From contig JAZGBI010000063.1 in assembly GCA_036476315.1 (NCBI GenBank), positions 1 through 64,000 on the forward strand: 64,000 bases of DNA, read 5' to 3'. The position numbers and the translations under genes were made by a program. The notes under the pieces are model-generated. The model had not been told where the DNA came from and ran no database searches. It was given only the letters and a program-made list of their open reading frames with translations. The stretch is from Candidatus Neomarinimicrobiota bacterium (lineage in GTDB: Bacteria > Fidelibacterota > Marinisomatia > Marinisomatales > S15-B10). This document shows, piece by piece, positions 29,894-47,851 of the stretch (position 1 is the first letter of the stretch; the number at the start of each line of letters is the position of its first letter).

Positions 29894-30631
29894 ATGCTGC
29901 CACTGATTATCTGTAAAAGTCATTATACCTTTCTGAAAGGGATTCATTCGCCTTCAGAACTTGTGGATTTTGCCAGAAAAAAAGGGGTAAAAACGCTCTG
30001 CCTGGCCGATAAGAACGGTCTCTATGGAGCCGTGGAATTCTATATTCGGTGCCGGGAGGCAAACATTCAACCACTCATCGCCACGGAACTGGTTCAGGAC
30101 AAACGGCACGTGACCATCGTGGCACGGAATGGGAAGGGATATGAGGAATTATGCCGCCTGGTTACCCAGCATCATCTGGAAAATCTTAAGATCGACGCAT
30201 TCCCCGATTCCCTGAATCTTCTTACCCTCTGCCGTGATCCTTTCCTCCTGCAGCGATGGCTCCTGCGGCGAAAGGGAGTGGAGCGAAACAACCTCTTTCT
30301 GGCCCTCAGCCTGTGGGACCGGGAATCTTTACGTTCCCTCTTGAATCTCTTATCCCGCCGCTCCGATCTTACCCGCGTTCCTGCCGTCCCGGTCATCGAG
30401 TGGAATCTTCTTGATCCTTCCGATGAACCGCTGCGTAACGTGCTGAGAGCCATCGACCTTAACTGTACGGTGGAGACGCTGCCGGAAAAAGAACGATTTG
30501 TGGGAGTGAAGATAAACCCGGAAGAGATTTCGTACGAACCCATGATCCCAGGTGACCACATTGCGAGACTGTGCCGCCTCGAGTTGGATCTTGAACGGTA
30601 TCACCTCCCCAGGTTCATACCCGAATCCTGA
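29894..30631 (+). CDS. Separate PHP domain of a DnaE-type DNA polymerase
   Basis: A 245-residue protein that corresponds to the N-terminal PHP domain of bacterial DNA polymerase III alpha. It starts with SHYTFLKGIHSPSELVDFARKKG and LADKNGLYGAVEFY, and ends with the segment RLELDLERYHLPRFIPES, which in full-length DnaE leads directly into the palm domain. The metal-binding histidines are lost (ICKSHY in place of the usual H-x-H, ADK in place of TDH), so it is probably not an active exonuclease. The remaining polymerase is encoded at 45590-47851, 15 kb away on the same strand. A TATAAT box at 29870-29875 lies 18 bases before the ATG; no ribosome site is evident. Confidence 0.85.
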   Translation: MLPLIICKSHYTFLKGIHSPSELVDFARKKGVKTLCLADKNGLYGAVEFYIRCREANIQPLIATELVQDKRHVTIVARNGKGYEELCRLVTQHHLENLKIDAFPDSLNLLTLCRDPFLLQRWLLRRKGVERNNLFLALSLWDRESLRSLLNLLSRRSDLTRVPAVPVIEWNLLDPSDEPLRNVLRAIDLNCTVETLPEKERFVGVKINPEEISYEPMIPGDHIARLCRLELDLERYHLPRFIPES

Positions 30632-30713
30632 CTTAACTTATTAAATAAGAACACCAGAGATTCCTGAAAATATATTGTAATAGTTACTCACACCTCATAT
30701 ACTAGCGGTAACC

Positions 30714-31163
30714 ATGTTGGACAAAAAAGACAAAATTATTCTTGATCTCCTTCAGGATACGGGACGGATGACGGCAAAGGAAGTGGCTCAGCATGTGGGA
30801 CTCTCCGTGCCGGCGGTGACGGAGCGGATGAAGAAATTGATGGATGAAGGAATTATTCGCGATTTCCGGGCAGTGGTGAATCCCAAGAAACTCGGCTATG
30901 ACGTGACGGCATTTATCTTTGTGGTGATGGCCTCATCGGACCATTATGAAGAACTCATAAGCCGCGCGGGCGATCTGGATGAAGTCCTGGAATGCCATTC
31001 CATCACAGGGGAAGGATCCCATATGTTGAAAGTGCGGACGCATGACACCTCATCCCTGGAGGCTCTCTTGAGAGAACTCCAGTCGTGGCCAGGAGTGATC
31101 CGGACTCACACCATGGTGGTCATGTCCACATTCAAGGAAGAGACCCACCTTCCGCTCCGGTAA
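30714..31163 (+). CDS. Lrp/AsnC-family transcription regulator
   Basis: A 149-residue regulator with an N-terminal winged helix-turn-helix (DKIILDLLQDTGRMTAKEVAQHVGLSVPAVTERMKKLMDEGII) and a C-terminal RAM ligand domain (LECHSITGEGSHMLKVRTHD, then SWPGVIRTHTMVVMST). These form octamers and respond to amino acids. It is read just ahead of a 2-hydroxyglutarate oxidase-like gene and glutamine synthetase, so a role in glutamate or nitrogen metabolism is plausible by position. The ATG lies 11 bases before the next gene's region begins to be transcribed in line with it. Confidence 0.93.
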   Translation: MLDKKDKIILDLLQDTGRMTAKEVAQHVGLSVPAVTERMKKLMDEGIIRDFRAVVNPKKLGYDVTAFIFVVMASSDHYEELISRAGDLDEVLECHSITGEGSHMLKVRTHDTSSLEALLRELQSWPGVIRTHTMVVMSTFKEETHLPLR

Positions 31164-31174
31164 ACACCATTCTC

Positions 31175-32308
31175 ATGGGTGTCGACTACGAGGTTGTTGT
31201 CATTGGCGCCGGAGTGGTTGGACTTGCGGTGGCTCGAGGCCTGGCAGAACAGAACGTATCATCCGTATTAGTGGTTGAGAAGGAAGACGATTTTGGCCTG
31301 GGTGTCTCGAGCCGGAACAGTGAGGTCATCCATTCGGGTATCTACTACCCGGAAGACTCTTTGAAGCTTCACTATTGTCGTTTGGGCCGGGAGAAGCTCT
31401 ATCGCTTCTGCCGGGCCAACGATGTATGGCACAGTCAATGCGGGAAGTTGGTGGTGGCACAGAAGGGTCAAGAAAAGAAGCTGGAGGCGCTGTACGCGCA
31501 GGCAAGAGCCAACGGGGTTCCCGAGATTTACATGATGAGGCAAAAGGAGATCCGGGCCCTTGAACCCGATGTGTCGGCTGCATCCGCCCTGTTTGTAGGA
31601 TGTACAGGAATTGTATCGGCTCATGAATTGATGTCCGCTTTTTCTCGCCATTCCACTGAAGCAGGCCACGACCTTCTGCTGAAAGCATCTGTGGTAGGGG
31701 CGGAACCCAAAGGGGAGGGCTATTCCGTGGCTGTAGAGGGTCCCGGGGAAGCCTCCTATGAGGTGACCACAAATTGGGTGGTGAATGCAGCGGGACTATC
31801 CAGTGATCGCGTGGCGGAATTCCTCTGGGGATCCGAAAGAAAAGACGGGCCCACGCTCCACTATTCCAGAGGCTCCTACTTCAAACTGTCATCCAGGTGG
31901 CGCCACAGGATACAGCATCTCGTCTACCCTATCCCTGATGAAGAGCACGATTCTCTTGGGATCCACCTCAGTTTTGACCAGGGAGGGAATATGAGGTTGG
32001 GGCCCAGCGCCGACTGGCTCCCTGAACCAGAAGAAGATTATACGGTTCGTGAAGACGACCTGGACATGTTCTACACCGCGGGCAGGCGGTATCTGCCTGC
32101 TCTGAAGCGTGAAGATTTGAGTGCGGACTTTGCGGGGATCCGACCCAAGCTGGCGGAAGCGGAAGGCAAACCTTCCGATTTCTACATCCGGCAGGAGAAA
32201 GACGAGGGGTATCCCGGTTGGATCAACCTGATAGGGATCGACTCTCCGGGACTGACAGCAGCCATCGCTATCGGTGAAGATGTGGTGGCGTGGATTGTGG
32301 AAGCCTAG
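31175..32308 (+). CDS. lhgO: FAD-dependent L-2-hydroxyglutarate oxidase/dehydrogenase-like
   Basis: A 377-residue flavoprotein of the DAO superfamily. The dinucleotide-binding motif is VVVIGAGVVGLAVARGLA at residues 6-23, followed by SSRNSEVIHSGIYYP, which is diagnostic of L-2-hydroxyglutarate oxidases. Later motifs are VNAAGLSSDRVAEF, HYSRGSYFKL, LRLGPSADW-like GNMRLGPSADW and IGIDSPGLTAAIAIG. It would oxidise L-2-hydroxyglutarate to 2-oxoglutarate with electrons passing to quinone or oxygen. ATG 31175 is chosen as the start of the dinucleotide fold; it lies 11 bases after the Lrp-type gene. Confidence 0.87.
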   Translation: MGVDYEVVVIGAGVVGLAVARGLAEQNVSSVLVVEKEDDFGLGVSSRNSEVIHSGIYYPEDSLKLHYCRLGREKLYRFCRANDVWHSQCGKLVVAQKGQEKKLEALYAQARANGVPEIYMMRQKEIRALEPDVSAASALFVGCTGIVSAHELMSAFSRHSTEAGHDLLLKASVVGAEPKGEGYSVAVEGPGEASYEVTTNWVVNAAGLSSDRVAEFLWGSERKDGPTLHYSRGSYFKLSSRWRHRIQHLVYPIPDEEHDSLGIHLSFDQGGNMRLGPSADWLPEPEEDYTVREDDLDMFYTAGRRYLPALKREDLSADFAGIRPKLAEAEGKPSDFYIRQEKDEGYPGWINLIGIDSPGLTAAIAIGEDVVAWIVEA

Positions 32309-32388
32309 CAAAAAAGGCTCTCCGTGAGACTTTAATAAGTCACGATATATCAATCCAAAACAATAATATTTAAAGATTCATCACGTGT

Positions 32389-32430
32389 CGACTTAATAAA
32401 CTTGCAAAATAAGTCGGTAATGCATAATAT
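32389..32430 (+). promoter_or_regulatory. Promoter of glutamine synthetase with an inverted repeat
   Basis: TTGCAA (32402-32407), a 17-base spacer and TAATAT (32425-32430) form a good sigma70-type promoter about 65 bases before the glnA start. CGACTTA (32389-32395) and TAAGTCG (32410-32416) form a perfect inverted repeat straddling the -35 box, a likely operator position. No sigma54 -24/-12 pair was found here. Confidence 0.55.
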
Positions 32431-32496
32431 TGGCTCTTGTTTTGAAGATCACGGGGTGGTTAAGGGGAACATACGAGTTAGGAAAGGAGAATAGCA

Positions 32497-33909
32497 GTGA
32501 CACCGAAGGAGTTTTTCGAGTTCTGTAAAGCAAACAATTCCGAGATGATCGACCTGAAATTTGTCGATCTTTTTGGCAGCTGGCAGCATTGTTCATTCCC
32601 GATTGATACATTGGATGAGAGTACGTTTGAAGACGGCCTCGGATTTGACGGTTCTTCCATTCGGGGATGGCAGGGAATTCACATATCTGATATGCTGGCG
32701 GTACCGGATCCAACCACCACATGCCTGGATCCCTTTTTCGCGAGGCCCACGGTCAGCGTCATTGCCAACATCGTGGATCCTGTGACGAAGAAGGACTACA
32801 CACGCGATCCACGTCACGTTGCCCGGAAAGGGGAAGAATACCTTCGATCAATAGGTATTGCGGACATCTGTTGCATTGGACCTGAACCCGAGTTTTTCAT
32901 CTTTGACGAAGTGAGGTTTGAGCAGAACCAGCATACGGGGATGTATCGAATCGATTCCATTGAAGGTGCCTGGAATACGGCGCGCTTCGAAGAACCGAAT
33001 CTGGGGTACAAACCCAGTTTCAAGGGAGGATATTTCCCGGTGAGTCCCACCGATACTTACCACGATCTTCGCGGAGAGATGGTCTATGAGATGCGCAAGG
33101 TGGGGATCATAGTCGAAGCTCACCATCATGAAGTGGCGACAGCGGGCCAGGGCGAGATTGACATGCGATTTGAGCCCCTCTTAAAAATGGCTGACCAGTT
33201 CATGTGGTACAAATACATCATCAAGAACGTGGCAAAGCAGAACGGGAAAACGGTAACCTTCATGCCGAAACCCATTTTCGAGGACAATGGAAGCGGGATG
33301 CACTCCCATTTTTCATTATGGAAGGATGGTGAACCCCTGTTTGCAGGTGACGGTTATGCCGGATTGAGCCAACTTGCCTTGTATGCCGCGGGTGGCATCC
33401 TGAAACATGCGCCGGCGATTCTGGCATTTGCGGCGCCTACCACCAATTCTTACCGCCGATTGGTCCCGGGGTTTGAGGCACCTGTCAATCTGTGTATGTC
33501 TGCCAGGAATCGGTCTGCGGCGGTCCGTATCCCCATGTATTCCGCAAATCCAAAAACCAAACGGCTTGAGTTCCGCTGTCCAGATCCCAGTTGCAACGGG
33601 TATTTAGCCTGGACGGCCATGCTAATGGCTGCGATCGACGGTATTCAGAATGAAATTGATCCTGGTGAACCTCTGGACCGGGATATCTACGGGATGAAAC
33701 CCGAAGAATTGGCAGGATACCGTCATACGCCGGCTTCACTGGAGGATGCCCTAAAGACATTGGAAGGTGATCATGAATTCCTCACAGCCGGGGAGGTTTT
33801 TACGGACGACCTAATTGACACCTGGATCAGTTGGAAGCACGATGAGGAGCTGGCCCCATTGGCCCACAGACCCCATCCGTTCGAGTTCCATCTGTACTAC
33901 GACGTGTAG
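32497..33909 (+). CDS. glnA: Glutamine synthetase, type I
   Basis: A 470-residue GSI enzyme that makes glutamine from glutamate, ammonia and ATP. Visible motifs: [62 protein letters not shown] (active-site glutamates and histidines), [34 protein letters not shown] and [10 protein letters not shown]398 in [11 protein letters not shown] sits where the adenylylation tyrosine lies in GSI-beta enzymes, so covalent control is possible; no glnE is in view. The GTG start has AAGGAG eight bases upstream. It has its own promoter at 32402-32430. Confidence 0.96.
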
Positions 33910-34735
33910 CCTTCAACGAGCGAATTTGAGGTAAGCAGAGGGTGATGCCAGGGGTGTCAATCGATGCATGGCTCTCAGAACTTCCTTCTCCAGCATTCCC
34001 TGTCCCCCCGATGTTCTCCTCGTGTGATTGTATCGACGGTCGCTTTGTCTCACGCTTTTCTTAGTGTTAGACCTGCCCACCACAAACGAAGTGCGATAGG
34101 CGAGAAAAGACATTAAAATCAGCATTCTGGTAGTTTCTGAAGGTGGGTTTTAGATATTGGAAGTTATCTTTTTCGTACCTTTCTTTCGTAAGAAAGGTAC
34201 CCAAAGAACCTTGGCTGAAAATAATCTGGCTTGTGTTGACTGTCGCCGCGGGGATGCATGAAACTCGTCTCCCGAAGTTGCGGGCTCCTCAGACAGTCAT
34301 GCATCCTAATCCACGGCTCCGCCAACCCTTTTTCACCAGATTATTTTAGGCCGTTTTTTCTACCTTGTTTGTGAGGGAAAGTCTGACTATCTGAGTCTCT
34401 TGTTCGGCACTATTCCCTCGGGCGAAATAGAACCAGAGGAGGTTTCCGTTAAGACGGAATCCTTAGTTTGAAATCCCGCCGCGGGATCAGTTTGGTTTCT
34501 TTCCAGAAAATCAACGACGGTTCCGCTCGGAGGAATCCAGCTTGTCCGTTCGTAACGAAGTGTAGACGGGCCGTGATCGTGTTCATTCTTTTTGTATCAA
34601 GTCGAAGATCCCGCCCGCCCCGCAAAGAGCGGGGACCCTTCGGGGACAAAAAGAACAGCAAACCTACAGTGATAGACTCTCCCTTCATTTTCCAGTTGTC
34701 TCCTTTTTCCCGATTTCACTTCGCGGCCGCCGGTA
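33910..34735. other. Gene-free stretch with nested inverted-repeat element
   Basis: Only the element at 34160-34350 stands out. ORFs on both strands through 34449-34905 look like chance frames with biased composition and no family features. A CCCGCCCGCCCCGCAAAGAG block near 34611 is another short repeat-like segment. Confidence 0.5.
34160..34350. mobile_element. Nested inverted-repeat element (possible MITE)
   Basis: Begins with a perfect 11-base hairpin (GTACCTTTCTT, loop TCGT, AAGAAAGGTAC; 34175-34200). Then come outer arms AAAATAATCTGG (34218-34229) and CCAGATTATTTT (34336-34347), perfect over 12 bases, with inner arms GGATGCATGA (34252-34261) and TCATGCATCC (34297-34306), perfect over 10. 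There is no coding capacity. A degenerate copy of the first hairpin lies at about 29786-29816, upstream of the PHP gene. Confidence 0.6.
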
Positions 34736-36211
34736 GTGTTCCCTGTCCCGATGGTTTACAGTTTTCCCTTGCCTGTTTGGGAATCTCCGCGCAATATCCT
34801 GAGTCGTTTAGGAGGGAAGAGTCTTATCCATACAAGGTTACCCATCGTTGTTCTTTCGATTCATCTTTTGAGTTGGGCAGCGGGTGCTGGATGGCAGCCT
34901 GCTGAAGGGGGATCTCCCCTGTTGACCGCCTATGAAGATGCTGCCAATCAGTTAATATCCGCCGCCTTAGCTGACAGTTCCGCCTACCATCGTCTTGCCT
35001 ATCTGACGGACACCTTTGGTCCGCGCTTCAGCGGCACGGAAAACCTGGAAGATGCCATCGACTGGATTCTGGAGGAAATGGAGCGGGATGGCCTGGAGAA
35101 TGTTCACGGGGAGGAGGTGATGGTTCCCCGGTGGGTGCGTGGCAATGAGTGGGTGGAACTTATAGAGCCGCGGCAGAAGAAGCTGGATATGCTGGGACTG
35201 GGTGGAAGCGTGGGGACGCCGCCTGAGGGAATTACGGCGGAGGTAGTGGTCGTAAAGAGCTTTGATGAGTTGACAGCCAGAGCGGATGAGGCCAAGGGTA
35301 AGATCATTCTTTTTAACGTCCCCTTTATCACGTACGGTGAAACGGTGCGATACCGCTATGGAGGAGCCAGTGCGGCAGCGAAGGCGGGTGCCGTGGCCAG
35401 CCTGATCCGGTCCGTAGGACCTTTTTCCATGAAAACGCCCCACACGGGAGGGATGGGTTACCAGGAGGGTGTGCCGAAGATCCCTCATGCCGCCATCACG
35501 GTGGAGGATGCCATGATGCTCCAGCGCATGGCGGACAGGGGTCAGCGAGTGGTGGTGCGCCTCACCATAGAAGCCCACTTTGATGAGGATGTTCCTTCCC
35601 GAAATGTGGTGGGGGAGATTGTAGGTCGTGAACATCCGGAAGAGGTTGTGGTTTTGGGAGGTCACATCGATTCGTGGGATGTGGGCACCGGGGCCATGGA
35701 TGACGCGGGGGGTTGCGTGGCTGCCTGGGAGGCGGTGCGCCTCATGCACGAGTTAAACTTACGTCCCCGGCGGACGGTGCGGGTGGTACTGTGGACCAAT
35801 GAGGAGAACGGCCTGCGGGGAGGCAGGGCCTACCGGGATACCCATGAGAGTGAACTGGACAATCACATCCTGGCTATGGAATCGGACAATGGAGTCTTCA
35901 AGCCCCTGGGCTTCGGTTTTACCGGTTCAGACGGTGCGAGAGCTACCGTTAAGGAGATCGCGAAATTTCTTGAGTCTATCAAGGCTGATTCCATAAAGGA
36001 GGGAGGGGCCGCCGCCGATATCGGGCCCCTCGAAAAAGAGGGTGTTCCTGTCATGTCGCTGAAAGTGGAGGGATCCCGTTATTTCTGGTATCATCACACG
36101 TGGGCCGATACCATCGACAAACTTGATCCTCACGAGCTCAACCTTTGTGTGGCGGCCATGCTGGTGATGGCCTACGTGGTGGCGGACATGGAGGAGCCTT
36201 TGCCCAGATGA
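34736..36211 (+). CDS. M28-family metallopeptidase, carboxypeptidase Q-like, exported
   Basis: A roughly 490-residue exported zinc peptidase. A hydrophobic signal-like helix (LPIVVLSIHLLSWAAGAG) lies at about 37-54, so the true start may be later than the ATG used here; a strong GGAGGG at 34811 has no standard start codon at the right distance. A PA-domain insert (about 160-270) precedes the M28 core with ligands in GGHIDSWDVGTGAMDDAGG, TNEENGLRGGRAY, MESDNG and a final histidine in YFWYHHTWADTIDKL. The layout matches human carboxypeptidase Q-type dipeptidases. It is followed 16 bases later by an aldo/keto reductase gene. Confidence 0.88.
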   Translation: MFPVPMVYSFPLPVWESPRNILSRLGGKSLIHTRLPIVVLSIHLLSWAAGAGWQPAEGGSPLLTAYEDAANQLISAALADSSAYHRLAYLTDTFGPRFSGTENLEDAIDWILEEMERDGLENVHGEEVMVPRWVRGNEWVELIEPRQKKLDMLGLGGSVGTPPEGITAEVVVVKSFDELTARADEAKGKIILFNVPFITYGETVRYRYGGASAAAKAGAVASLIRSVGPFSMKTPHTGGMGYQEGVPKIPHAAITVEDAMMLQRMADRGQRVVVRLTIEAHFDEDVPSRNVVGEIVGREHPEEVVVLGGHIDSWDVGTGAMDDAGGCVAAWEAVRLMHELNLRPRRTVRVVLWTNEENGLRGGRAYRDTHESELDNHILAMESDNGVFKPLGFGFTGSDGARATVKEIAKFLESIKADSIKEGGAAADIGPLEKEGVPVMSLKVEGSRYFWYHHTWADTIDKLDPHELNLCVAAMLVMAYVVADMEEPLPR

Positions 36212-36227
36212 CCCAGGGGAATTCCGC

Positions 36228-37208
36228 ATGATTAATCGCCGGGAGTTTCTCAAATCGCTGGGAGGTCTCACTGCAGGGATTGTGTTACCCCGTGGTATCT
36301 GGCAGGGGAATTCGAAAGATCGCCTGGGAGACCTACTGCCCATGCGCAAGTTGGGACGCACAGGTGAGGCGGTGACCATGCTGGGCGTGGGAGGCTGGCA
36401 CATTGGGAGGATGGGGGAGCGTGAGGCTCAAGCCACGATTGAAGCGGCCCTGGAAGGAGGAGTGCGCTTCTTCGATACGGCGGAAAGCTACCAGGGAGGC
36501 GGGAGTGAAAGCCGGTTAGGCCGGCTCCTCATCCCAAAGTACCGTGACGACGTTTTTATCATGACCAAAACCACCGCCGGGGATGCGCACGGAGTCCGTC
36601 GCCACCTGGAAAGTTCGTTGCGTCGATTGGGAACGGACCATTTAGACTTGTGGCAAGTGCATTCGGTGAGGAGTCCTCGGGATGTGGATGGCCGGATCGA
36701 CAGGGGTGTGTTTGACGTGGTCATGGAGGCGAAGGAATCGGGCAAAACCCGCTATGTGGGCTTTACTGGCCATACCCGCCCTTCTGCCCATCTGCGTGTG
36801 TTGGAAGAATTGGATATCTTTGACGCCTGCCAGATGCCCGTGAATCTGGCCGATCCGGGTTACGAAAGTTTTATTGAGCATGTGATGCCCGAGCTGGTGG
36901 AACGCAAAATTGGGATACTGGCCATGAAGACCCTGGCCAACGGGGGCTTTTTTGGTGGATCCCGCCATGGGGAGCACGGTGATAATCCCAAGCTTGTACC
37001 CGACCGGGTAAGCATTCGTGAGGCGATCCATTTTGTCTGGTCTCTTCCGGTGACCGTCTTGATCACGGGTCCCGACAACGCCGCTCAGCTCAAGGAGAAA
37101 ATCGCCCTAGCCCGCTCTTTCAGCCGGATGGATGAGGAGGAACGGGAAAGGTTAATCGAGAAAGTTTCAGATTTGGCGGGACCCCGTGTGGAATTTTACA
37201 AAGCGTGA
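36228..37208 (+). CDS. Tat-exported aldo/keto reductase
   Basis: A 326-residue aldo/keto reductase-fold protein with a twin-arginine signal at the start (NRREFLKSLGGLTAGIVLP). The barrel then shows MRKLGRTGEAVTMLGVGGWHIG, FFDTAESYQGGGSESRLGRLL (aspartate and catalytic tyrosine), MTKTTAG (lysine), DLWQVHSV (histidine region) and GFTGHTRP. The Tat signal implies export of a folded, cofactor-bound protein, which is known for one branch of this family. It sits directly after the M28 peptidase gene, so probably in one operon. Its 3' end overlaps the convergent methyltransferase remnant by 13 bases. Confidence 0.9.
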   Translation: MINRREFLKSLGGLTAGIVLPRGIWQGNSKDRLGDLLPMRKLGRTGEAVTMLGVGGWHIGRMGEREAQATIEAALEGGVRFFDTAESYQGGGSESRLGRLLIPKYRDDVFIMTKTTAGDAHGVRRHLESSLRRLGTDHLDLWQVHSVRSPRDVDGRIDRGVFDVVMEAKESGKTRYVGFTGHTRPSAHLRVLEELDIFDACQMPVNLADPGYESFIEHVMPELVERKIGILAMKTLANGGFFGGSRHGEHGDNPKLVPDRVSIREAIHFVWSLPVTVLITGPDNAAQLKEKIALARSFSRMDEEERERLIEKVSDLAGPRVEFYKA

Positions 37209-37948
37209 ACGGGGCGCTGCCGCTTACGATATCGGGATATAAGCAGCCTCATACGCAGTCTTACCCTGGCGCCGTTGCCGCTGGACGTTAAGAGCTGGCG
37301 TGCCTTCGAGAAAACCATTTTCGGCAGGATGGGCGTTGGGTCCCAGTTTTCCTCCATGTAATCTTTCATTTCGTCGATGGTATCCCAGTACCATAAATAA
37401 TCGAACGACTCTTCCCGCTCCCGGTGAAACCATTCTTGTTCAGTCACTTTTTCGAGAGACTCACTGCAGGCGATATCCGTGGGGATTTCCGCGGTATCAT
37501 CCACGAATCCGGCCGGCTTCACCTGGTCATGGGAAACAACTTCCAGCGGGAACTTCCCGGCGAGCGGGCGTAAATCCACGAAACTCCCATTGGGAACCAG
37601 AACCCGCCAGGTTTCTTTCAGGGCATGAACCATGCCCTCCCGGGGTATTCATCAGAGGGACCAGGCCAGGATCGCCAGGTCAAACGTCCGCTGTGGGAAG
37701 GGCAGTGCTTCGGCATCGACCTGAGCGAAAGAAACAGGTGTGGTCACTCCTGGTGGGCGGTCAGAATGAACTTCGGTCAGATCCTCATCATCTGAATCGA
37801 TGGCTACCACCCTTTTTGCGGAGTTGGCGTAGCCCCATGTGAGCCGCCCACTGCCGCATCCGATCTCCAGGACGCGTGCATGGTTGAAGTCCGCAAGCTC
37901 ATACAGATATTTGGCTTCTGTTCCTTCTGGATCCCGTTCGGAGGACAT
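37196..37948 (-). pseudogene. SAM methyltransferase interrupted by two in-frame TGA codons
   Basis: Two adjacent ORFs are one gene in one frame. The first 98 codons carry motif I (VLEIGCGSGRLTWGYA), VVAIDSDDEDL and ALPFPQRTFDLAILAWSL. Two TGA codons follow (plus-strand 37649-37654), and the frame continues IPREGMVHALKETWRVLVPNGSFVDLRP through the C-terminal domain to 37196. Relatives have two ordinary residues, often histidines, where the stops lie (SL-HH-IP). No bases are missing or added. Just downstream of the stops the message can form a perfect eight-pair hairpin with a GTT loop (37620-37638). The simplest reading is a pseudogene or sequence error; recoding is possible but unproven. Confidence 0.75.
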
Positions 37949-37994
37949 AGCTGGGAATTACCTGGAGATATTCGAAATGGGGACGACCTTGTTC

Positions 37995-38453
37995 CTAAGC
38001 CGCTGCTTCCGGTTGCGGCTCCTCTGGCGTTTCCGCTGCCGCCTCCCCGGGTTTCCCGTAGACAAACCCTATGAGCAGGCCAGCTGTTGCTACCTCCAGT
38101 GTGTAGACGAATATGAATACCACAGTAGGACCAAAGCCTATGGGAAACATCAGGTCAAAGAAAATCCCGAACGGTATCCCCGCAAAGAGGCCCAGGAGAA
38201 TACCGAAGCGGAGTCCCTCACCTGCAGGTGGACCACCTTCATATCCTTTCGGATACAGATAGGCCATGATAAGGACCATTGCCAGGACGGCGATCAGGGG
38301 CAAGTAGAATGCTCCTCCTATGGCTGCTCCCGTTGGTTCTATGATGTTTTTTTCCATGTAGCCCTTGAAGATGAATTGCTCCAGGACGTAATAGGCGACA
38401 ACGTTACCGACGAAGCCGGCGACTACGGCGAGAAAAAATTTCTTCGTGTTCAT
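37995..38453 (-). CDS. Small polytopic membrane protein of unknown function
   Basis: A 152-residue protein with four hydrophobic helices: KFFLAVVAGFVGNVVAYYVL, YLPLIAVLAMVLIMAYLYP, LRFGILLGLFAGIPFGIFFDL and VVFIFVYTLEVATAGLLIGFVYG, followed by an alanine- and glutamate-rich tail. The glycine-proline pattern in the last two helices recalls DUF1761-like proteins, but the assignment is weak. GGAGGG precedes the ATG on the minus strand. Confidence 0.6.
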   Translation of the reverse strand: MNTKKFFLAVVAGFVGNVVAYYVLEQFIFKGYMEKNIIEPTGAAIGGAFYLPLIAVLAMVLIMAYLYPKGYEGGPPAGEGLRFGILLGLFAGIPFGIFFDLMFPIGFGPTVVFIFVYTLEVATAGLLIGFVYGKPGEAAAETPEEPQPEAAA

Positions 38454-38589
38454 ACTTCACCCTCCTTTGGTTTGGTAATGATCAATGCTCGAGCGAGCAT
38501 TAACCTGGAAGTGAACTTGCCGTGAGAATCCCCCGCACGTAATAGGTGTGTAGGGAATCGTAAAATAATTTATCTTCAATTTGGTCCAG

Positions 38590-39162: not shown

Positions 39163-40905
39163 ATGCTCACCCGACTTTGCGTTAAGAACTACGCTCTTAT
39201 TGAAAATCTGGACGTTACTTTTGGGACTGCTTTCAGCGTTCTCACCGGTGCCACTGGAGCAGGGAAGTCCATCCTCATCGGTTCCATGAACCTGATTCTC
39301 GGAGAGAAGGCATCCCTGGAAATGATCCGCAGCGGGACCAAAGAAGCGTTTGTGGAGGCGACCTTTGAATTCGAATCACCCCCGCCCGAACCGGTTCGGC
39401 GGTTTCTTTCTCAAGGATCCAATGTCTTGCTACTGAAACGTCAGGTGGTGGAAAAAGGGCGGAGCTTTGCCTTTGCCAATGATCAGAAAATAACTCTCGC
39501 TACTCTGAAAGACGTTGGCATAGTGTTGGCGGACCTTCTGGGACAGCACCATCATCAGTCTCTCTTGAATCCCAATATCCATCGAGAACTCCTGGACCGG
39601 TTCAGTCTTGATACCACGGTATTAAGGGACTATGGTGAAACTTTTTTCCGCCTGAAAAAATGTGAACAGGAGTTGAAAGAGACTCTGGAACAGGAGCAGC
39701 TCTCAAAGGAGCGCCAGGAGCTTTATCGCTTCCAGATGGATGAGGTTGACAAAGCTGAACTCCAGCCGGGGGAACGGGCATCCCTCCGGGAAGAGCGAAA
39801 GGTGTTGCAGAACGCCCGGAAAATCATCTCCACGGCTCAACGGATCAGCCACGGCCTCTCGGGAGAGGACGAATCTGCCCTGAATCGATTGAAGATTCTG
39901 TTGAGGGAATTCGAGTCGTTAGCGGAACTGGACACCAGCCTGGAAGACAAAGTGTCCCAGTGGAAGGATGCGGTGTTTTCTCTGGAGGACCTGGCTTTCG
40001 ATCTGGCCCGGTACAGTGATTCTGTTCAGGCAGATCCCGTCCGATTGGAGTGGGTGGAAGATCGCCTCAGGCTTTATTCGGATTTTGCGAAAAAGTATGG
40101 AGTTTCCGGTTCTGAAAGTTCAAGTGACGTGGACTCATATGACGCCATCATGAACTATCGTGACAGGATTGAAAAGGAGTTGAAGAACCTTGAGAACCGT
40201 GAGGATCGAATCGAAAAACTCAAGGGGAAAGTTGAATCCCTGAAGGCCGAAGTCTTCACGCAGGGGCAGGCTATTTCCAAAGAGCGGGCCGGGGGTGCAA
40301 AGATCCTAAAACAAAAGATCGAAGAGGAATTAAGAGAACTTGGAATGAAGGGAACCAAGTTCGACGTTCAGTTCACACCTTTGTCCCAGGGAGGTTCTAC
40401 TGCGGAGGTTGTTTCGGGCAAAAAGGCTTGTTATGCCGGCGAAACCGGTCTGGAAGACGTGGAATTCTCGATTTCTCCCAATCCAGGGGAACCGCTCAAG
40501 CCCCTTGCACGGATCGCCTCCGGGGGTGAAATCTCGCGCATTATGCTGGCCCTCAAAACCGTTCTGGCAAAGGTAGACAATATTCCCCTTTTAGTCTTTG
40601 ACGAAATCGACGTTGGGATTGGTGGAGAAATTGCATCCCTGGTGGGGAAAAAGCTCAGGAAACTGTCCCGGAGTCACCAGATTATTTGTATCACTCATCT
40701 TCAGCAGATCGCTTCCCAGGGTGACCATCATTTTCGTGTTTTTAAAACTCAGAAGGGTGACCGGACGATCACCAAGGTGAAGGTATTATCTCAAGAAGAG
40801 CGGGTGGAGGAGATTGCCCGCATGATTGCCGGTGAGCAGATCACCGATCTGTCTCTTGAACACGCCCGGGAATTCCTTGACGAAGCGGCGCGTGCCCAAG
40901 GTTGA
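39163..40905 (+). CDS. recN: DNA repair protein RecN
   Basis: A 580-residue SMC-like ATPase in double-strand break repair. Head domain: Walker A GATGAGKSILIG (about residues 30-41), Q-loop region LGQHHHQSLLNPNIHRELLD, a central coiled coil with short hinge, then the signature RIASGGEISRIMLALK, Walker B PLLVFDEIDVGIGG and the switch histidine in CITHLQQIASQGDHHF. ATG 39163 is preferred over the adjacent TTG. The usual SOS induction of recN makes the upstream inverted repeat interesting. It is a lone gene between a repeat array and a 560-base gap. Confidence 0.96.
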   Translation: MLTRLCVKNYALIENLDVTFGTAFSVLTGATGAGKSILIGSMNLILGEKASLEMIRSGTKEAFVEATFEFESPPPEPVRRFLSQGSNVLLLKRQVVEKGRSFAFANDQKITLATLKDVGIVLADLLGQHHHQSLLNPNIHRELLDRFSLDTTVLRDYGETFFRLKKCEQELKETLEQEQLSKERQELYRFQMDEVDKAELQPGERASLREERKVLQNARKIISTAQRISHGLSGEDESALNRLKILLREFESLAELDTSLEDKVSQWKDAVFSLEDLAFDLARYSDSVQADPVRLEWVEDRLRLYSDFAKKYGVSGSESSSDVDSYDAIMNYRDRIEKELKNLENREDRIEKLKGKVESLKAEVFTQGQAISKERAGGAKILKQKIEEELRELGMKGTKFDVQFTPLSQGGSTAEVVSGKKACYAGETGLEDVEFSISPNPGEPLKPLARIASGGEISRIMLALKTVLAKVDNIPLLVFDEIDVGIGGEIASLVGKKLRKLSRSHQIICITHLQQIASQGDHHFRVFKTQKGDRTITKVKVLSQEERVEEIARMIAGEQITDLSLEHAREFLDEAARAQG

Positions 40906-41467
40906 AATAGCTGAGATTTATTTTCAAGCTCGAATATCCGCTCTATCTGTTTCAGGGTTTGCTTTTCCGTCAGCTCCGTGAGAAGCCCCTCTTGTGGCTA
41001 GCTCTGCTTCTCCATAAATGGTTTGTACGGCTGATGCTCAGGAACGCACTCCGTTCGTAGTATTATCTGGAAAGGCTCGGGAATCTTGTTGCTCCCTCTG
41101 AAACTAACAAGCAAAGGAATATAGCCAACTCTTTTCCACACTAAGGCGGTTGACTTTGAACCGTTAAACAAAAGCGTAGACGCAAAGGGACATATAAAAC
41201 CTGTGTTGTTGGATGATTTCATGCCTGTGTTTGACTTTAATGAAGTTCACGCGAGTGAGAAAAGGTGAAACAGTGGTTTGAAAAAGCTTGGGATGGCGTT
41301 CTCGAAACGCTAGGAAGACAAGTCAAAGGGTCATAAGTAGTTAATCCTGCGGTTACAGGAGGAAACCATTATCTATTATGTCATTGCTCCCAGAGGAGTC
41401 CTGAGACCTCGGGGAAAAGCGGTTTGCCGAATATTTACACACAATCGCATTAAATGGAGATAACCAG
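40906..41467. other. Gap after recN; nothing assigned
   Basis: A 560-base stretch without a supported gene. One short ORF near 41264 (VKQWFEKAWDGVLETLGRQVKGS then stop) resembles the last helix of an SRPBCC/AHSA1-type protein, but no upstream part of such a gene is visible, so it is not called. Confidence 0.4.
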
Positions 41468-42250
41468 ATGAAAGTGATAGACCTAACCGCTGATCACAAG
41501 CCTCTGTATTTTGCTTGTCTCGAAGATTGGTCTGAAGAAATGAAAGAGGCAGGGGATCATAAAGAGAGATGGTATAATAAGATGAAGGATAAAGGACTCA
41601 GTGTGAAACTTGCGGTAGATGACCGAGGGGAAGTTGGAGGCATGATACAATACGTACCTATAGAACACTCCTCCGTTGAAGGTAGTGAATTATATTTCAT
41701 AAAATGCATCTGGGTCCACGGTCATAAGAAAGGGAGAGGGAACTTTCAGAAGAAAGGGATGGGGAAGGCTCTGCTTCAGGCTGCAGAAACTGATGTGAAA
41801 GTAAAAGGAGCAAAAGGGCTGGTCGCATGGGGCATTTCCTTGCCTTTTTGGATGAAGGCATCATGGTTCAAAAGGAATGGATACACCAAAGTGGATAAAC
41901 AGAAGGGCATGGTTCTCTTATGGAAGCCTTTCACCAAAGACGCAATCCCCCCCAAATGGATCAAGCAAAAAAGAAAACCTGAAGCAACACCAGGCAGAGT
42001 AACGGTAACGGCATTCCTGAATGGGTGGTGTCCGGCTCAGAATATAGTATTTGAAAGAGCCAGGAGAGCCGCATCAGAATTTGGGGAGAAGGCAGTGTTC
42101 AAGGAGATCAACACATTTGTCAGAGAAGCTTTCCTGGAATGGGGTATTGCAGATGCCTTGTTTATTGATGATAAACAGGTGCGAACCGGTCCACCACCTT
42201 CGTATAAAAAAATAAAAAAACTGATAGCCAAAAGAGTCAAGAAAATATGA
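41468..42250 (+). CDS. GNAT acetyltransferase fused to a YoaP-like thioredoxin-fold domain
   Basis: A 260-residue protein. Residues 1-160 are a GNAT domain (SVKLAVDDRGEVGGMIQYVP, then FQKKGMGKALLQAAETDVK as the acetyl-CoA loop). Residues about 180-255 match the YoaP-like domain: VTAFLNGWCPAQNIVFERARRAASEF, then EINTFVREAFLEWGIADALFIDDKQVRTGPPPSYKKIKKLI. The cysteine in NGWCPAQN lies where thioredoxin folds carry their active site. This two-domain layout is common in bacteria and archaea, but its substrate is not known. GGAGAT precedes the ATG. Confidence 0.88.
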   Translation: MKVIDLTADHKPLYFACLEDWSEEMKEAGDHKERWYNKMKDKGLSVKLAVDDRGEVGGMIQYVPIEHSSVEGSELYFIKCIWVHGHKKGRGNFQKKGMGKALLQAAETDVKVKGAKGLVAWGISLPFWMKASWFKRNGYTKVDKQKGMVLLWKPFTKDAIPPKWIKQKRKPEATPGRVTVTAFLNGWCPAQNIVFERARRAASEFGEKAVFKEINTFVREAFLEWGIADALFIDDKQVRTGPPPSYKKIKKLIAKRVKKI

Positions 42251-42315
42251 CGACTAAATGGCAGGAAAGAACTTAACGAGGTACTTAATATTTCCGTTTC
42301 AAAGATTGAGGAATA

Positions 42316-43263
42316 ATGGGCTTCGTGCGACTTTGTGAGGAGGATACCACAATTCAATGGCTGTTGGAAGGTGATCCTTCCATCCGGTGGCAGACTCTGC
42401 GTGATTTGGAGGGTGCAGACGATCAAGTCGTGAAGCGGGAGCGTCACTTGGTTTCCGAAACAGGGTGGGGAGCCAGGTTGCTTTGCAATCAGGAACCGTC
42501 AGGGCAGTGGGGTGGGGGATTGTATTCTCCAAAGTGGATATCTACAACGTATACGATGCTTTTATTACGTCGCTTGGGTCTACCTCCGGAGCATCCTCAA
42601 GCGTCCAGGGCTTGTGCATTGCTGCTGGATCGAGGAGTTTACCCGGATGGCGGGATCAACTATTTCACTACGCTGAAACATAGCGAGACATGTGTGACTG
42701 GAATGATTCTGGCTATACTTGCTTACTTCCATTTCCCCGATGATCGGGTCGATGTCTTGGCAAGCTATCTCCTGGAACAGCAGATGAAAGATGGTGGCTG
42801 GAATTGCCAAACATACAAAGGTGCAACCCACGGTTCATTTCATACGACGATTTCTGTCTTGGAGGGTTTGTACGAGTACGAGAAATTCCATCCACAGCGT
42901 ATTCAGGAGATTCGCGAAACGCAGTCACGGGGATGTGAGTTTCTTCTTGCTCATCGGCTTTTTCGGTCTCATCGAACCGGAGAAATTGTAAATCCAGCGA
43001 TGACCCGCTTTTCCTTCCCGCCCAGGTGGCGGTACGACATCCTTCGGGCCCTTGACTATTTTCAGGATTGCGGTGCCGAACGCAATGAAAGGCTCGAGGA
43101 TGCCATCAAGGTGGTAAGAAAGAGACAGAAGAAAGGCGGACGGTGGCTCCTCCAGAACAGGCACCCTGGACGGACATTCTTTGAGATGGAGAAGGCAGGT
43201 GAGGCCAGCCGGTGGAATACGCTAAGGGCCCTGCGCATCCTCAGATGGTGGGGGGATTCATAA
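42316..43263 (+). CDS. Alpha/alpha-toroid protein (prenyltransferase/squalene cyclase-like)
   Basis: A 315-residue soluble protein with repeated helical QW-like segments: EPSGQWGGGLYSPKWISTTYTMLLLRRLGL, YPDGGINYF, HSETCVTGMILAILAYF, MKDGGWNCQTYKGATHGSFHTTISVLEGL and RWNTLRALRILRWWG. Such repeats form the toroid of terpene cyclases and prenyltransferases. The DxDD or VSDCTA acid motif of squalene-hopene cyclases is not seen, so a binding or unknown role is more likely than cyclisation. A GAGGA ribosome site precedes the ATG. Confidence 0.8.
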   Translation: MGFVRLCEEDTTIQWLLEGDPSIRWQTLRDLEGADDQVVKRERHLVSETGWGARLLCNQEPSGQWGGGLYSPKWISTTYTMLLLRRLGLPPEHPQASRACALLLDRGVYPDGGINYFTTLKHSETCVTGMILAILAYFHFPDDRVDVLASYLLEQQMKDGGWNCQTYKGATHGSFHTTISVLEGLYEYEKFHPQRIQEIRETQSRGCEFLLAHRLFRSHRTGEIVNPAMTRFSFPPRWRYDILRALDYFQDCGAERNERLEDAIKVVRKRQKKGGRWLLQNRHPGRTFFEMEKAGEASRWNTLRALRILRWWGDS

Positions 43264-43319
43264 TGGAATCTTTCTTCCTACAGTGATGTTTCATTTTAGA
43301 TCGACAAGGAGTGAAGACC

Positions 43320-43670
43320 ATGCCCGTGAGTGAAAGTTACCTAGAATACGTACTGGAACAACTTGAATGCGTGGGGCAAGTTTCTGCCAAGAAGATGTTT
43401 GGCGGAGTTGGACTCTACCTTGACAGGCTGTTCTTTGGACTGATTGCCAACGACACGTTGTATCTTAAGGTTGATGATTCCAATCGGTCTGATTACGAAG
43501 CGGCGGGTATGGGACCTTTCAGGCCCTATGGCGACAAGTCCCATTCAATGAAGTACTACGAAGTCCCGATAGATGTATTGGAAGACAGCAATACACTTCG
43601 AGTGTGGGCAAATAAGGCATTAGACATAGCAAAACGAAAGTTGCCAGTTAGCAAGAGAAAGCCAAATTAG
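43320..43670 (+). CDS. TfoX N-terminal domain protein
   Basis: A roughly 116-residue protein with the TfoX_N pattern: SYLEYVLEQLECVGQVSAKKMFGGVGLYLDRLFFGLIANDTLYLKVDD, then MKYYEVPIDVLED. In gammaproteobacteria the full TfoX/Sxy activates competence genes; stand-alone N-domains are widespread and have no known function. ATG 43320 is preferred to the in-frame GTG three codons earlier because AAGGAG lies eight bases before it. It is followed by a DUF2461 gene on the same strand. Confidence 0.88.
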   Translation: MPVSESYLEYVLEQLECVGQVSAKKMFGGVGLYLDRLFFGLIANDTLYLKVDDSNRSDYEAAGMGPFRPYGDKSHSMKYYEVPIDVLEDSNTLRVWANKALDIAKRKLPVSKRKPN

Positions 43671-43781
43671 GTCAATTACGAAAGGTTCTACCATCCCTGG
43701 AATGGGTGTAAAAAGCACGGGGAACTCCAAATGAACATTAACAGAAATTGAGACACGTTCAACAGCTTCTCACCAAAGACA

Positions 43782-44465
43782 TTGGACTTCCTGAAAAACT
43801 TGGGAGCAAATAACAACAAAGCTTGGTTTGAAGCACACAGGGAGGATTACCGAAAGCACTTGCTGGAACCGTTACAGAATCTGGTTGTGGATGCGGGCAA
43901 TTTTATGCTGACAATTGACCCGTATTTTGAGACAAGACCTGCAATAGATAAGACGATTTCCAGGATTTATCGAGACATAAGGTTCTCTAAAGACAAATCT
44001 CCCTATAGAAACACAATGTGGATAACCTTTAAAAGACCAGGCAAAGACTGGAAGAGTTCCCCAACCTATTTCTTTGAAATTTCTCCAGATTCATATCGTT
44101 ATGGGATGGGATTTTACAGTGTCTCGAAAGATACGATGGACATGTTTCGTGAGATGGTTGACAAAAAGCCAGAGGAGTTTCAAAAAGCAATTTCATTTTA
44201 TTCGCAACAAAAAGCTTTTGTGGTAGAGGGTGAGAAATACAAAAGGATAATCGATAAGACCAAGTCTGAAGAGATCCGGAATTGGTATCAAAGAAGAAAC
44301 CTATATTTGGTTTGTAATAGAGAGATCAACAGCCGCCTTTTCACGAGAGACTTGATTGACGACTTAGTTTCTGGTTTTGGTCTCCTTGCCCCGTTCTATC
44401 ATTACCTTTGGAAGATAAGACGTGAAGCGGAAAAGGGGAGGACCGGATATGGAAACATCAGATAA
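43782..44465 (+). CDS. DUF2461 protein, apparent start disrupted by an in-frame TGA
   Basis: A 227-residue DUF2461 (TIGR02453) protein: LKNLGANNNKAWFEAHREDYRKHLLEPL, TISRIYRDIRFSKDKSPYRNTMWITFKR and FEISPDSYRYGMGFYSVSKDTMDMF. Family members normally start about 15 residues earlier with a phenylalanine-rich stretch, and that stretch is present (DTFNSFSPKT) but preceded in frame by TGA at 43749. An ATG at 43731 with GGGGAA upstream opens the same frame and hits the TGA at codon 7. Either TTG 43782 is used, or the gene is damaged, or the base is a sequencing error. Function unknown. Confidence 0.75.
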   Translation: MDFLKNLGANNNKAWFEAHREDYRKHLLEPLQNLVVDAGNFMLTIDPYFETRPAIDKTISRIYRDIRFSKDKSPYRNTMWITFKRPGKDWKSSPTYFFEISPDSYRYGMGFYSVSKDTMDMFREMVDKKPEEFQKAISFYSQQKAFVVEGEKYKRIIDKTKSEEIRNWYQRRNLYLVCNREINSRLFTRDLIDDLVSGFGLLAPFYHYLWKIRREAEKGRTGYGNIR

Positions 44466-44489
44466 AATCCACTAGGGGGAATAACCACG

Positions 44490-44705
44490 ATGAATAACCC
44501 CCTATCAAAACTATTTTGTTGGCACCTGTCACAGGAAACTCTTATTCCCACAATAGCAGGGATTATTGTTCTTGCCCTATCGGCAGCCATGATACCGTTT
44601 CGTGAAATACCATTAGTAACTATGATGCTCTGGGATATAGGAATGGTCTTTTTGGCCGGGATACTTTTTCCCCTCTATTACATCCAACGGTATGGCAGCA
44701 GCTAC
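44490..44705 (+). pseudogene. N-terminal fragment of a CPBP-like membrane protease
   Basis: The first 70 codons encode a membrane protein start: LIPTIAGIIVLALSAAMIP, then LVTMMLWDIGMVFLAGILFPLYYIQRYG. That is the N-terminal pattern of many CPBP (CAAX/bacteriocin-processing) intramembrane proteases. From about 44705 the frame runs antisense through rpiB and no longer resembles a protein. The gene is therefore cut at the rpiB end. The family call is from pattern memory. Confidence 0.5.
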
Positions 44706-44719
44706 ACAACTGGGAGAAG

Positions 44720-45157
44720 TCAGGCATCCCTGCTTGATTGCTCCATCTTCCGAATCCTTTCTATCTGCTTCAGATTCCATTCATCATCGCTGTACGGTGT
44801 ATCGAACCAGGCATCGAGAATTTCCTTCACCACGGCTTCCGGTGTGGCCCGGAGGCTTAAGGCCAGGACATTGGCGTGGTTCCATATACGGGCTCCCTTG
44901 GCCGTTTCGGCATCGCCGCAGAGGGCCGCCCGGATACCGGGGATCTTATTCGCGGCAATGGTGCAACCGGTACCTGTCCAGCACATGACGATGGCTTCGT
45001 CTGCCTTTTCGTTCACCACCTGCTCCGCTGCCTGACGGGTCACCTCCGGCCAGTCTTCCGATTCGAAATAGACCACCTTGTGGCCCCGTTTTTTCAGCTC
45101 ATCTAACACCGCATCCACCAGATGGGTCCGTTCATCGGTGCTCACCGCGAGTTTCAT
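44720..45157 (-). CDS. RpiB/LacA/LacB-family sugar-phosphate isomerase
   Basis: A 145-residue isomerase of the RpiB family, which interconverts ribose-5-phosphate and ribulose-5-phosphate or related sugars. Visible: MKLAVSTDERTHLVDAVLDELKKRGHKV, ADEAIVMCWTGTGCTIAANKIPGIRAALCGDAETAKGARIWNHANVLALSLR. The cysteine in the second-strand motif and the GTGCTIAANK/NHANVL motifs match the family. The usual D-HAG start is replaced by STDERTHL. It is read alone on the minus strand, between a truncated gene and a repeat array. Confidence 0.88.
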   Translation of the reverse strand: MKLAVSTDERTHLVDAVLDELKKRGHKVVYFESEDWPEVTRQAAEQVVNEKADEAIVMCWTGTGCTIAANKIPGIRAALCGDAETAKGARIWNHANVLALSLRATPEAVVKEILDAWFDTPYSDDEWNLKQIERIRKMEQSSRDA

Positions 45158-45194
45158 GATTTGAATTTAAACCACAGATTACACAGATTGCACT

Positions 45195-45589
45195 AATCAT
45201 CAAGATAAAAGTAAAAAGTCGGATTCCGACGATCAAGTGTCAAGGATCAAGTAACAAGGATCAAGTGTCAAGTAACCAGTGAACCGGTCACCAGATGGCA
45301 GTCAGCAGCTACCGGGTTGGAGAAGTGGAGAATTGTTCCGTAGGAACTCCTTTGACCCGTAGGGTCTCCTGTGGAGGAGGAAGAATGTCCAAAGGAGCCT
45401 GTGGCGAGTATTGCGGCACGGAGGCCAGTGAGCATTCAGCACTCATTGTCCAGAAGCATCGAGCATCCAGTATCTAGCATCAAGATTCACGGATTACGCA
45501 TCGAGTATCAAGAAACCAGCATCCGGGAACCAGAGGGAAAGACGTGTTCAAGTGTTTCCCGAGGGGACTCCTTCGGAGCAGGTGTTAAC
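45195..45589. repeat. Repeat array directly upstream of the DnaE polymerase core
   Basis: CAAG-NNN words followed by CCAGTGAACCGGTCACC and GGCAGTCAGCAG (45238-45308), then GTAGGAACTCC, GGTCTCCTGTGGAGG and a further run of GAGCATCCAGTATC and CAAGATTCACG words to about 45530. An open frame from 45371 crosses this array into the polymerase gene, but its translation is not protein-like before about 45590. The array therefore forms one edge of the split dnaE. Confidence 0.7.
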
Positions 45590-47851
45590 GTGAAAGACTC
45601 GAAAACGAAAAGTTCTACTGATCTTCTGGTCAAAGTCTGTCACGAGGCCTTGCCGGAGAAGTACGATCCCATCACCACGGAGGTCTTGAAGCGCCTCACT
45701 TATGAGCTCGATATCATTATCGAGATGGGGTATGCCGATTATTTCCTGATTGTTTGGGATATTGTTCGATGGGCGAAAAGGCGCGGCATTCCCGTGGTGG
45801 GCCGCGGTTCAGCGGCGGGGAGCTTGGTGTCCTATTTGTTGGAGATCACCCCGGTCGATCCTATCAAACATAACCTGGTGTTCGAACGGTTTTTGAATCC
45901 CGATCGCCAGGAACCACCGGACATTGACATCGATCTCTGCTGGAAGCAGCGGGACGACGTCATCGAGTACGTCTACAAGCGGTATGGTCGGGATCGGGTC
46001 GCCATGATCTGCACCTACAATACCTACAAATTCCGGGGAGCCGTCAGGGACGTTGCGAGGGCCATGGGACTTTCCGAACGGGAAATCAATACTATCTCGC
46101 ACAACTTGCCGTTATCCCATGAACCGACATTGGGTAACGGGGATGGGAGGAACGATCCGCGTTATGAAGAAATCTTTGAGACGGCCCGAAGTTTGATCCA
46201 CCGGCCGCGACACATGGGGATTCACGCGGGAGGAATTGTCATCACTCCAGACAAAATCACCGAATACGTTCCCCTTCAACGATCCACCAAAGGTCCCGTG
46301 GTGACCCAGTTCGATATGCACGGAGTGGAAAAGATAGGGCTTGTGAAGATCGATCTATTGGGTCAGCGGTCTTTAACCGTGGTGGCGGAGATGGCGGAGA
46401 CGCTAAAGAAAAAATATGGAGTCCGGTTCGACCTTCAGACGATGCCATCATTGGATGAAAAGGTAAAACGTCTCATCCGAACGGGCCGGACCATGGGAGT
46501 ATTTCAGATCGAATCGCCGGGGATGAGAGGATTATTGAAGAAATTGAAGGTTGACTCCTTCGAGATGATCACGGCGGCCAGTTCCGTTATCCGGCCGGGA
46601 CCTGCAGACTCGGGGATGTTGCGCCATTTCATCAAGCGGCACCATGGAAAAGAAGAGGTTAAAACGGTTCTTCCGGCCATAGGGGAGATACTGAAAGAAA
46701 CATACGGTGTGATGCTCTACCAGGAGGATGTCATCAAGATTGCTGAGGCCGTTGCTGGATGGAGCTTGGCAGAATCGGATAAACTTCGCCGGTCCATGAG
46801 TGGGAAAAGGGTAGAGGAACCGTTTATGGAGCACCGGGATCGGTTCATTAAGGATGCCGTGAAGAGGGGTGTGAATGTGGACGCCGCTATCGAGACCTGG
46901 CGGCAGATGGTGGCTTTCTCCGGATATGCTTTCTGCAAGGCCCACTCCGCTGCCTATTCGGTGGTTTCCGTTCAGTGTGCCTGGCTGAAGGCCCACTTCC
47001 CGGCGGAGTTTCTGGCTACTGTCATGTCCAATTATGGTGGATTCTACCATACGTCGTGCTATCTGGAAGAAGCCCGGCGTATGGGGATCAATATTCTGCC
47101 GCCGGACGTGAACCTTTCGGAACCCCACTTCATAGGTCACGATGACGACGGCGAAGAGGAGTGGATTCGGATCGGTCTTCTTCAGGTGAAGGGGTTAACC
47201 CAGGCCACACTCAAAAAAATATTGGACAAACGTAAGGAAAGACCGTTTGAGTCGCTGGAGGACTTCTGTGTCCGGGTGAGGCCGTCTTGCCGGGAAGTAG
47301 AGGCACTCATTCGCTGTGGCGGATTTGATTCATTTCCTTACACCCGTCCTCAGCATTTGTGGCGCCTCAAACTTATCTATGATAAACTCAAGGGTTCGGA
47401 GGAAGTCATTTTCTCCAGGGTGGTCACGAAAGTATCCACGCCTGTTCCCTGGGTCGATTATCCTTTGGAGAAAAAATTACGGGATGAGCTGGAACTCATG
47501 GAACTCACGGTGGAAAAACATCCCCTGTGGATCTATAAAAAGGCACTGAAGGCTCATGCAGAAAAAGTGGGAAAGTTTGTTCATGCCCGGGATCTTGAGA
47601 GGTACAAAGGAAAACAGGTCACCATGGTGGGCTGGATGGTTACCACCCGACGGTTGAAGACCAAGCGGAAAAAGATAATGCAATTTCTTTCCTGCGAGGA
47701 TCTTACAGGGACATTTGAGTGTGTCCTTTTCCCCCACGCGTATCAGCAATATGGCCATCTGATCCGGAGCCGGGGGCCTTACATGATCACTGGCAAGGTG
47801 GAAGATGATTTTGGACACACCCCCGTTACCGTGAAAAAATTGGAGCTCTGA
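45590..47851 (+). CDS. dnaE: DnaE-type DNA polymerase III alpha lacking its PHP domain
   Basis: A C-family polymerase of about 753 residues beginning where the palm domain begins. Key motifs: LTYELDIIIEMGYADYFLIVWDIV, GRGSAAGSLVSYLLEITPVDP, catalytic D111 and D113 in PPDIDIDL, GLVKIDLLGQRSL with D255, GVMLYQEDVI, a helix-hairpin-helix (KGLTQATLKKILDKR) and a C-terminal OB fold (QVTMVGWMVTTRRL). It ends soon after the OB fold, without the tau-binding domain, as in short error-prone-type DnaE proteins. The missing PHP domain is encoded at 29894-30631; together they would total about 998 residues. GTG 45590 is proposed as start. Confidence 0.88.
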   Translation: MKDSKTKSSTDLLVKVCHEALPEKYDPITTEVLKRLTYELDIIIEMGYADYFLIVWDIVRWAKRRGIPVVGRGSAAGSLVSYLLEITPVDPIKHNLVFERFLNPDRQEPPDIDIDLCWKQRDDVIEYVYKRYGRDRVAMICTYNTYKFRGAVRDVARAMGLSEREINTISHNLPLSHEPTLGNGDGRNDPRYEEIFETARSLIHRPRHMGIHAGGIVITPDKITEYVPLQRSTKGPVVTQFDMHGVEKIGLVKIDLLGQRSLTVVAEMAETLKKKYGVRFDLQTMPSLDEKVKRLIRTGRTMGVFQIESPGMRGLLKKLKVDSFEMITAASSVIRPGPADSGMLRHFIKRHHGKEEVKTVLPAIGEILKETYGVMLYQEDVIKIAEAVAGWSLAESDKLRRSMSGKRVEEPFMEHRDRFIKDAVKRGVNVDAAIETWRQMVAFSGYAFCKAHSAAYSVVSVQCAWLKAHFPAEFLATVMSNYGGFYHTSCYLEEARRMGINILPPDVNLSEPHFIGHDDDGEEEWIRIGLLQVKGLTQATLKKILDKRKERPFESLEDFCVRVRPSCREVEALIRCGGFDSFPYTRPQHLWRLKLIYDKLKGSEEVIFSRVVTKVSTPVPWVDYPLEKKLRDELELMELTVEKHPLWIYKKALKAHAEKVGKFVHARDLERYKGKQVTMVGWMVTTRRLKTKRKKIMQFLSCEDLTGTFECVLFPHAYQQYGHLIRSRGPYMITGKVEDDFGHTPVTVKKLEL

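Follow-up and report, generated by a model that had tools for sequence, protein, structure and literature searches.

A DnaE2-like polymerase encoded as separate PHP and core genes in a Marinimicrobia family

The archaeal family-B DNA polymerase of Methanothermobacter is naturally made of two polypeptides, in a polymerase family unrelated to the one considered here, and in cyanobacteria DnaE derives from two distant genes whose products are rejoined by a split intein. In this study, we describe a DnaE-like polymerase encoded in a stretch of 64,000 nucleotides (hereafter the window) of Candidatus Neomarinimicrobiota bacterium (assembly GCA_036476315.1, contig JAZGBI010000063.1, positions 1 to 64,000), in which the PHP domain and the polymerase core are separate genes.

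The PHP domain is termed universal or strictly conserved in published surveys, and the literature regards it as a strictly conserved element of structural importance in the C-family polymerases (PMC3666897). The PHP of E. coli Pol III alpha lacks metal ligands and is thought to be structural; it is covalently attached to the polymerase, and mutations in it reduce the stability and activity of Pol III (PMC3666897). The DnaE2 (ImuC) enzymes are error-prone, damage-inducible C-family polymerases that typically come in a cassette with ImuA and an inactive ImuB. They are non-essential where tested (PMC3919608), and a paper of 2025 stated that no DnaE2 biochemistry had been published, possibly because these enzymes are difficult to work with on their own (PMC12641269). 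In the literature, with subscription journals not fully covered, we found no C-family polymerase described as split without an intein.

Two genes that cover one DnaE chain

The two genes are the following.

29894..30631, + strand: free PHP subunit, corresponding to the N-terminal domain of DnaE2-like polymerases (245 amino acids, aa; Pfam, profile alignment, AlphaFold2 model and ligand check)
45590..47851, + strand: free polymerase core with palm/thumb, fingers, helix-hairpin-helix (HhH) and OB domains (753 aa; catalytic Asp triad present)

Both open reading frames (ORFs) were intact at these coordinates and were separated by 14,958 bp. The PHP product (P0001) matched the Pfam PHP model (8e-18), and the core product (P0002) matched the DNA_pol3_alpha, finger, HHH_6 and OB models. 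On the E. coli DnaE chain, the alignment profile of the PHP half spanned residues 6-287 and P0002 residues 320-1060, so that their coverage is complementary and does not overlap. P0002 has the catalytic Asp motifs (PDIDID and GLVKID), and its D111, D113 and D255 aligned with the motifs that hold D401, D403 and D555 in E. coli DnaE. The two products add up to 998 aa, compared with ~995-1047 aa for most fused homologues, and therefore nothing substantial is missing. Neither junction had extra residues, such as intein halves, the products ending and beginning within the domain linker, and a scan with Rfam gave no match near either gene, for instance to a group II intron. The preliminary description of this DNA, which had proposed a split DnaE with all its catalytic aspartates, no loss of sequence and no intein, was thus borne out. 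In contrast to the cyanobacterial arrangement, the break here lies at the PHP/palm linker, involves no intein and affects an accessory polymerase.

The accessory status, which the preliminary description had not considered, follows from a separate full-length DnaE1 encoded in the same genome (1177-aa frame, contig C26), which rules out a split replicase. The OB domain, whose Pfam match extends to residue 750 of 753, is the last in P0002, which has neither a tau-binding C-terminal domain nor a PHP. The split enzyme is a DnaE2-like second polymerase.

With respect to the PHP metal site, only a Glu was kept of the nine canonical ligands in both split PHPs examined; given this loss the PHP should not be a nuclease, and an active nuclease was discarded as a candidate function. 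The ratio of nonsynonymous to synonymous rates (dN/dS) of the PHP gene was ~0.2-0.35 in close pairs (NG86), its amino-acid changes fell short of neutral expectation (a fraction of 0.000-0.014 of the simulations gave the observed number or less), and it contained no stops where neutral drift predicts several per lineage. These sequence comparisons indicate that the PHP is under purifying selection, weaker than that on the core.

Structures were predicted for single chains only. The AlphaFold2 models had a mean predicted local distance difference test score (pLDDT) of 86.5 and a predicted template-modelling score (pTM) of 0.85 for the PHP, and of 87.1 and 0.86, respectively, for the core. The best PDB matches of the PHP model were DnaE PHP domains, over the full length (query-based template-modelling score, TMq, ~0.72), while TMq against free PHP phosphoesterases was only 0.36-0.47. 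The closest structures to the core model were likewise DnaE.

Distribution in the phylum and descent

The comparison covered a family set of 10 genomes from five genera and a phylum set of 245 genomes. A free PHP and a free core were present in the same two neighbourhoods in eight of the 10 family genomes, which belong to four genera and come from independent assemblies (among them the public records Candidatus Marinimicrobia UBA6931 and UBA2125). The PHP frame (245-285 aa) was intact in all eight, and the core frame in six, namely this genome and five relatives (765-786 aa). Across genera the core was 72-78% identical to P0002 and kept every catalytic residue. The fifth genus is represented by two incomplete genomes, in which no PHP, no core and no close relative of dinB were found. 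Rather than fused genes in relatives and decay confined to this genome, the split was common to the relatives and the frames were intact here.

Elsewhere in the phylum the enzyme is fused: a ~1000-aa form occurred in ~100 other genomes of the 245, no convincing free PHP gene was found among them outside the family, and all other PHP-DnaE2 matches were fused, save a few frames that seem to have been truncated at contig ends. In the phylum's other families the fused DnaE2 gene is usually preceded by a Y-family gene; in the other families of the order, this gene encodes a catalytically dead ImuB.

In two maximum-likelihood trees of the core, the split polymerases formed their own clade with 100% support, distinct both from DnaE1/DnaE3 and from the ImuC clade of the phylum; neither tree supported an origin within the latter. 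The clade lay on the branch between DnaE1/3 and DnaE2, on or near the base of the DnaE2 side, the position of the root not being exact. The nearest non-split row by path was a fused DnaE2 linked to a Y-family gene. By identity, the nearest fused relative was that of the unclassified metagenome-assembled genome (MAG) WY4.bin59 (45%), a protein of 1100 aa whose gene overlaps a Y-family gene. In a planctomycete MAG (L131:7607-12235), 4 bp separate a fused DnaE2-like gene from that of a Y-family polymerase with the catalytic motif SIDE, this being another pairing of an active Y-family enzyme and DnaE2 without a typical ImuB.

Taken against the DnaE2/ImuC enzymes, the split polymerase is similar in being a second DnaE beside DnaE1 with ~1000 aa in total, in stopping after the OB domain, in its degenerate PHP metal site and in the linkage of its PHP half to a Y-family gene; in the trees it branches near the base of the DnaE2 side. 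It differs in consisting of two separate genes in eight genomes instead of a single PHP-polymerase polypeptide, and in branching outside the ImuC clade that its own phylum has. It is DnaE2-like in several respects but lacks both the ImuB cassette and the single chain, which are defining features of DnaE2.

Neighbouring genes and a motif shared by dinB and PHP

The surroundings of the two halves include the following features.

26833..26849, + strand: copy, with one mismatch, of the putative motif listed below at 29639..29655; it precedes the dinB cluster and is flanked by the promoter-like hexamers TTGATA and TATACT
27864..29057, + strand: DinB (Pol IV), catalytic residues intact, heading the dinB-ssb-PHP cluster
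29136..29540, + strand: single-strand binding protein (SSB) gene between dinB and PHP, order identical in 8/8 genomes
29639..29655, + strand: rare putative motif TATACGCCTTTTATATG between ssb and PHP, with related copies in dinB promoters
30714..31163, + strand: AsnC/Lrp-family regulator, first gene after PHP, a context marker in 8/8 genomes
44720..45157, − strand: RpiB/LacAB isomerase just upstream of the core, a context marker in 8/8 genomes

No Y-family polymerase other than DinB was detected in the genome. The catalytic residues of DinB are intact, and ImuB was not found, in a search that did not cover ImuA. The gap between the halves was filled, as previously suggested, by ordinary genes, including the AsnC/Lrp regulator, an FAD oxidoreductase, glnA, an M28 peptidase, an aldo/keto reductase, RecN, DUF2461 and RpiB. 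In the eight split-bearing genomes the context of the PHP was constant (dinB-ssb-PHP-lrp-FAD oxidoreductase) and so was that of the core, between rpiB and a penicillin-acylase-like gene. Both halves were on one contig in three genomes (G000, G001 and G003), 8-15 kb apart and with recN in between. The opposite orientation of RpiB just upstream of the core argues against co-transcription of the two halves. Upstream of the dinB cluster lie two gene pairs that resemble toxin-antitoxin systems, their sequences looking HigBA-like and VapBC-like (24883-25457 and 25973-26664).

The motif, in the form TATACGCYTTTTGTATG, was found in the dinB promoter, in the ssb-PHP gap and, in relatives, upstream of a ~63-aa CxxC zinc-ribbon gene that is followed by a GlcD-like FAD oxidase; its loci beyond the window were G000:C59:220 (L203), L207, L208 and L209. 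Perfect copies numbered just one or two per genome. Since the other perfect site precedes the zinc-ribbon protein and the GlcD-like oxidase, the motif is not evidence of an SOS regulon, and a LexA-type operator common to both halves was discarded, as the motif stands at dinB and PHP and not at the core. The PHP gene may be co-regulated with dinB, and the AsnC/Lrp gene beside it is a candidate regulator acting on the motif.

The spacing around the motif is peculiar in this genome. About 240 bp (29656-29893) separate it from the PHP start, while in relatives it abuts the start codon; the sequence directly after it, ATGCAATCTCCCCTCATTATA, resembles the PHP start of relatives. Between the dinB promoter motif and dinB lies a four-helix-bundle gene, S23-like by appearance, with degenerate repeats (27333-27719). 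In most relatives the distance from motif to dinB is within ~200 bp.

A two-part enzyme and its alternatives

We consider it likely that the two genes arose by fission of a DnaE2-like translesion polymerase and that the catalytically dead PHP domain now serves the core in trans, as a structural subunit. Of the possibilities raised in the preliminary description, a natural two-subunit polymerase is the one favoured by the sequence evidence, and the split polymerase probably works as such an enzyme. An ancestral gene for a DnaE2-like accessory polymerase, linked to a Y-family polymerase gene, would have been broken at the PHP/core linker before the Marinimicrobia family diversified. The PHP half would have stayed in the dinB-ssb cluster while the core, the half that would have moved, came to rest 8-15 kb off beside rpiB, and both would have been retained afterwards. 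The core would perform the synthesis, which, judging from the linkage to DinB and from the traits shared with DnaE2, is probably error-prone or translesion. The inactive PHP would pack on the core non-covalently as a structural or stability subunit, as the inactive PHP stabilises E. coli Pol III. In support of this, PHP and core occur together in eight of the 10 family genomes and are both absent from the two of the fifth genus, and fused DnaE2 elsewhere in the phylum adjoins a Y-family gene, as the PHP half does here. Whether the PHP, separately expressed from the Pol IV/SSB cluster, also acts in trans as an activator or regulator of the core, translesion activity then needing both halves, is a more speculative matter, on which we lean towards doubt.

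It must be noted that several observations weigh against the two-part enzyme. The ratio of PHP to core differences was ~1.4-2.9, compared with mostly 1.2-1.6 when pairs of fused DnaE2 from the phylum with a similar core identity are taken, and this faster divergence indicates that the constraint on the PHP is partly relaxed but real. The Y-family partner is a catalytically intact DinB, unlike that of typical DnaE2/ImuC. The motif was missing from the region upstream of the core and thus gives no support to a joint regulation of the two halves. Finally, the core frame was broken into pieces in G008 (L064), and in G005 (L062) it shifts near its end and is cut at 700 aa. These genomes are MAGs 62-75% complete and sequencing error is the likely cause, with decay still conceivable.

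The broken frames also bear on the idea that the polymerase is dispensable and that one half, or both, is a remnant in slow decay. The weaker constraint on the PHP and the non-essential nature of DnaE2 genes where tested (PMC3919608) would fit this explanation, but the core frame is intact in six genomes and the PHP frame in eight although synonymous sites are saturated across the four split-bearing genera, the core has kept its identity and all its catalytic residues, and the PHP is under purifying selection; we regard decay as very improbable. The same conservation of the split across four genera, together with saturation, intact frames and purifying selection, excludes a recent break. The earlier suggestion of a gene broken by rearrangement thus holds in the sense that a rearrangement made the split, in the ancestor of the family, and fails as a recent event. 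An artefact of assembly or binning, suggested on account of the short degenerate repeat array before the core (45231-45281), is hardly credible, since in G001 and in G003 a single contig holds the two halves, ordered as here, with no such array just before the core, and the flanking genes agree in eight separate assemblies. Rejoining of the two products after transcription or translation, by a split intein or a trans-splicing RNA, has a precedent in cyanobacterial DnaE; with no extra junction residues, products that end and begin in the domain linker and no Rfam match near either gene, its probability is negligible.

A less remote, though still unlikely, explanation is that the core works alone, without a PHP, and that the freed PHP has acquired a new job in the dinB-ssb cluster, such as recruitment or regulation of Pol IV. 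The PHP is linked to dinB and ssb and not to the core, its divergence relative to the core exceeds that of fused PHP domains, and the core is predicted to fold well alone. However, the PHP model is still DnaE PHP-like over its full length, PHP and core co-occur and are absent together, and the domain is regarded as strictly conserved and structurally important in C-family polymerases (PMC3666897).

This is a lineage in which the PHP has been cut off and yet kept for several genera, which offers a direct test of the role of this domain. With the PHP added or omitted as a separate protein, the stability, activity and fidelity of the core could be measured, and the split form may help the study of DnaE2 enzymes, for which no biochemistry had been published according to the 2025 paper (PMC12641269).
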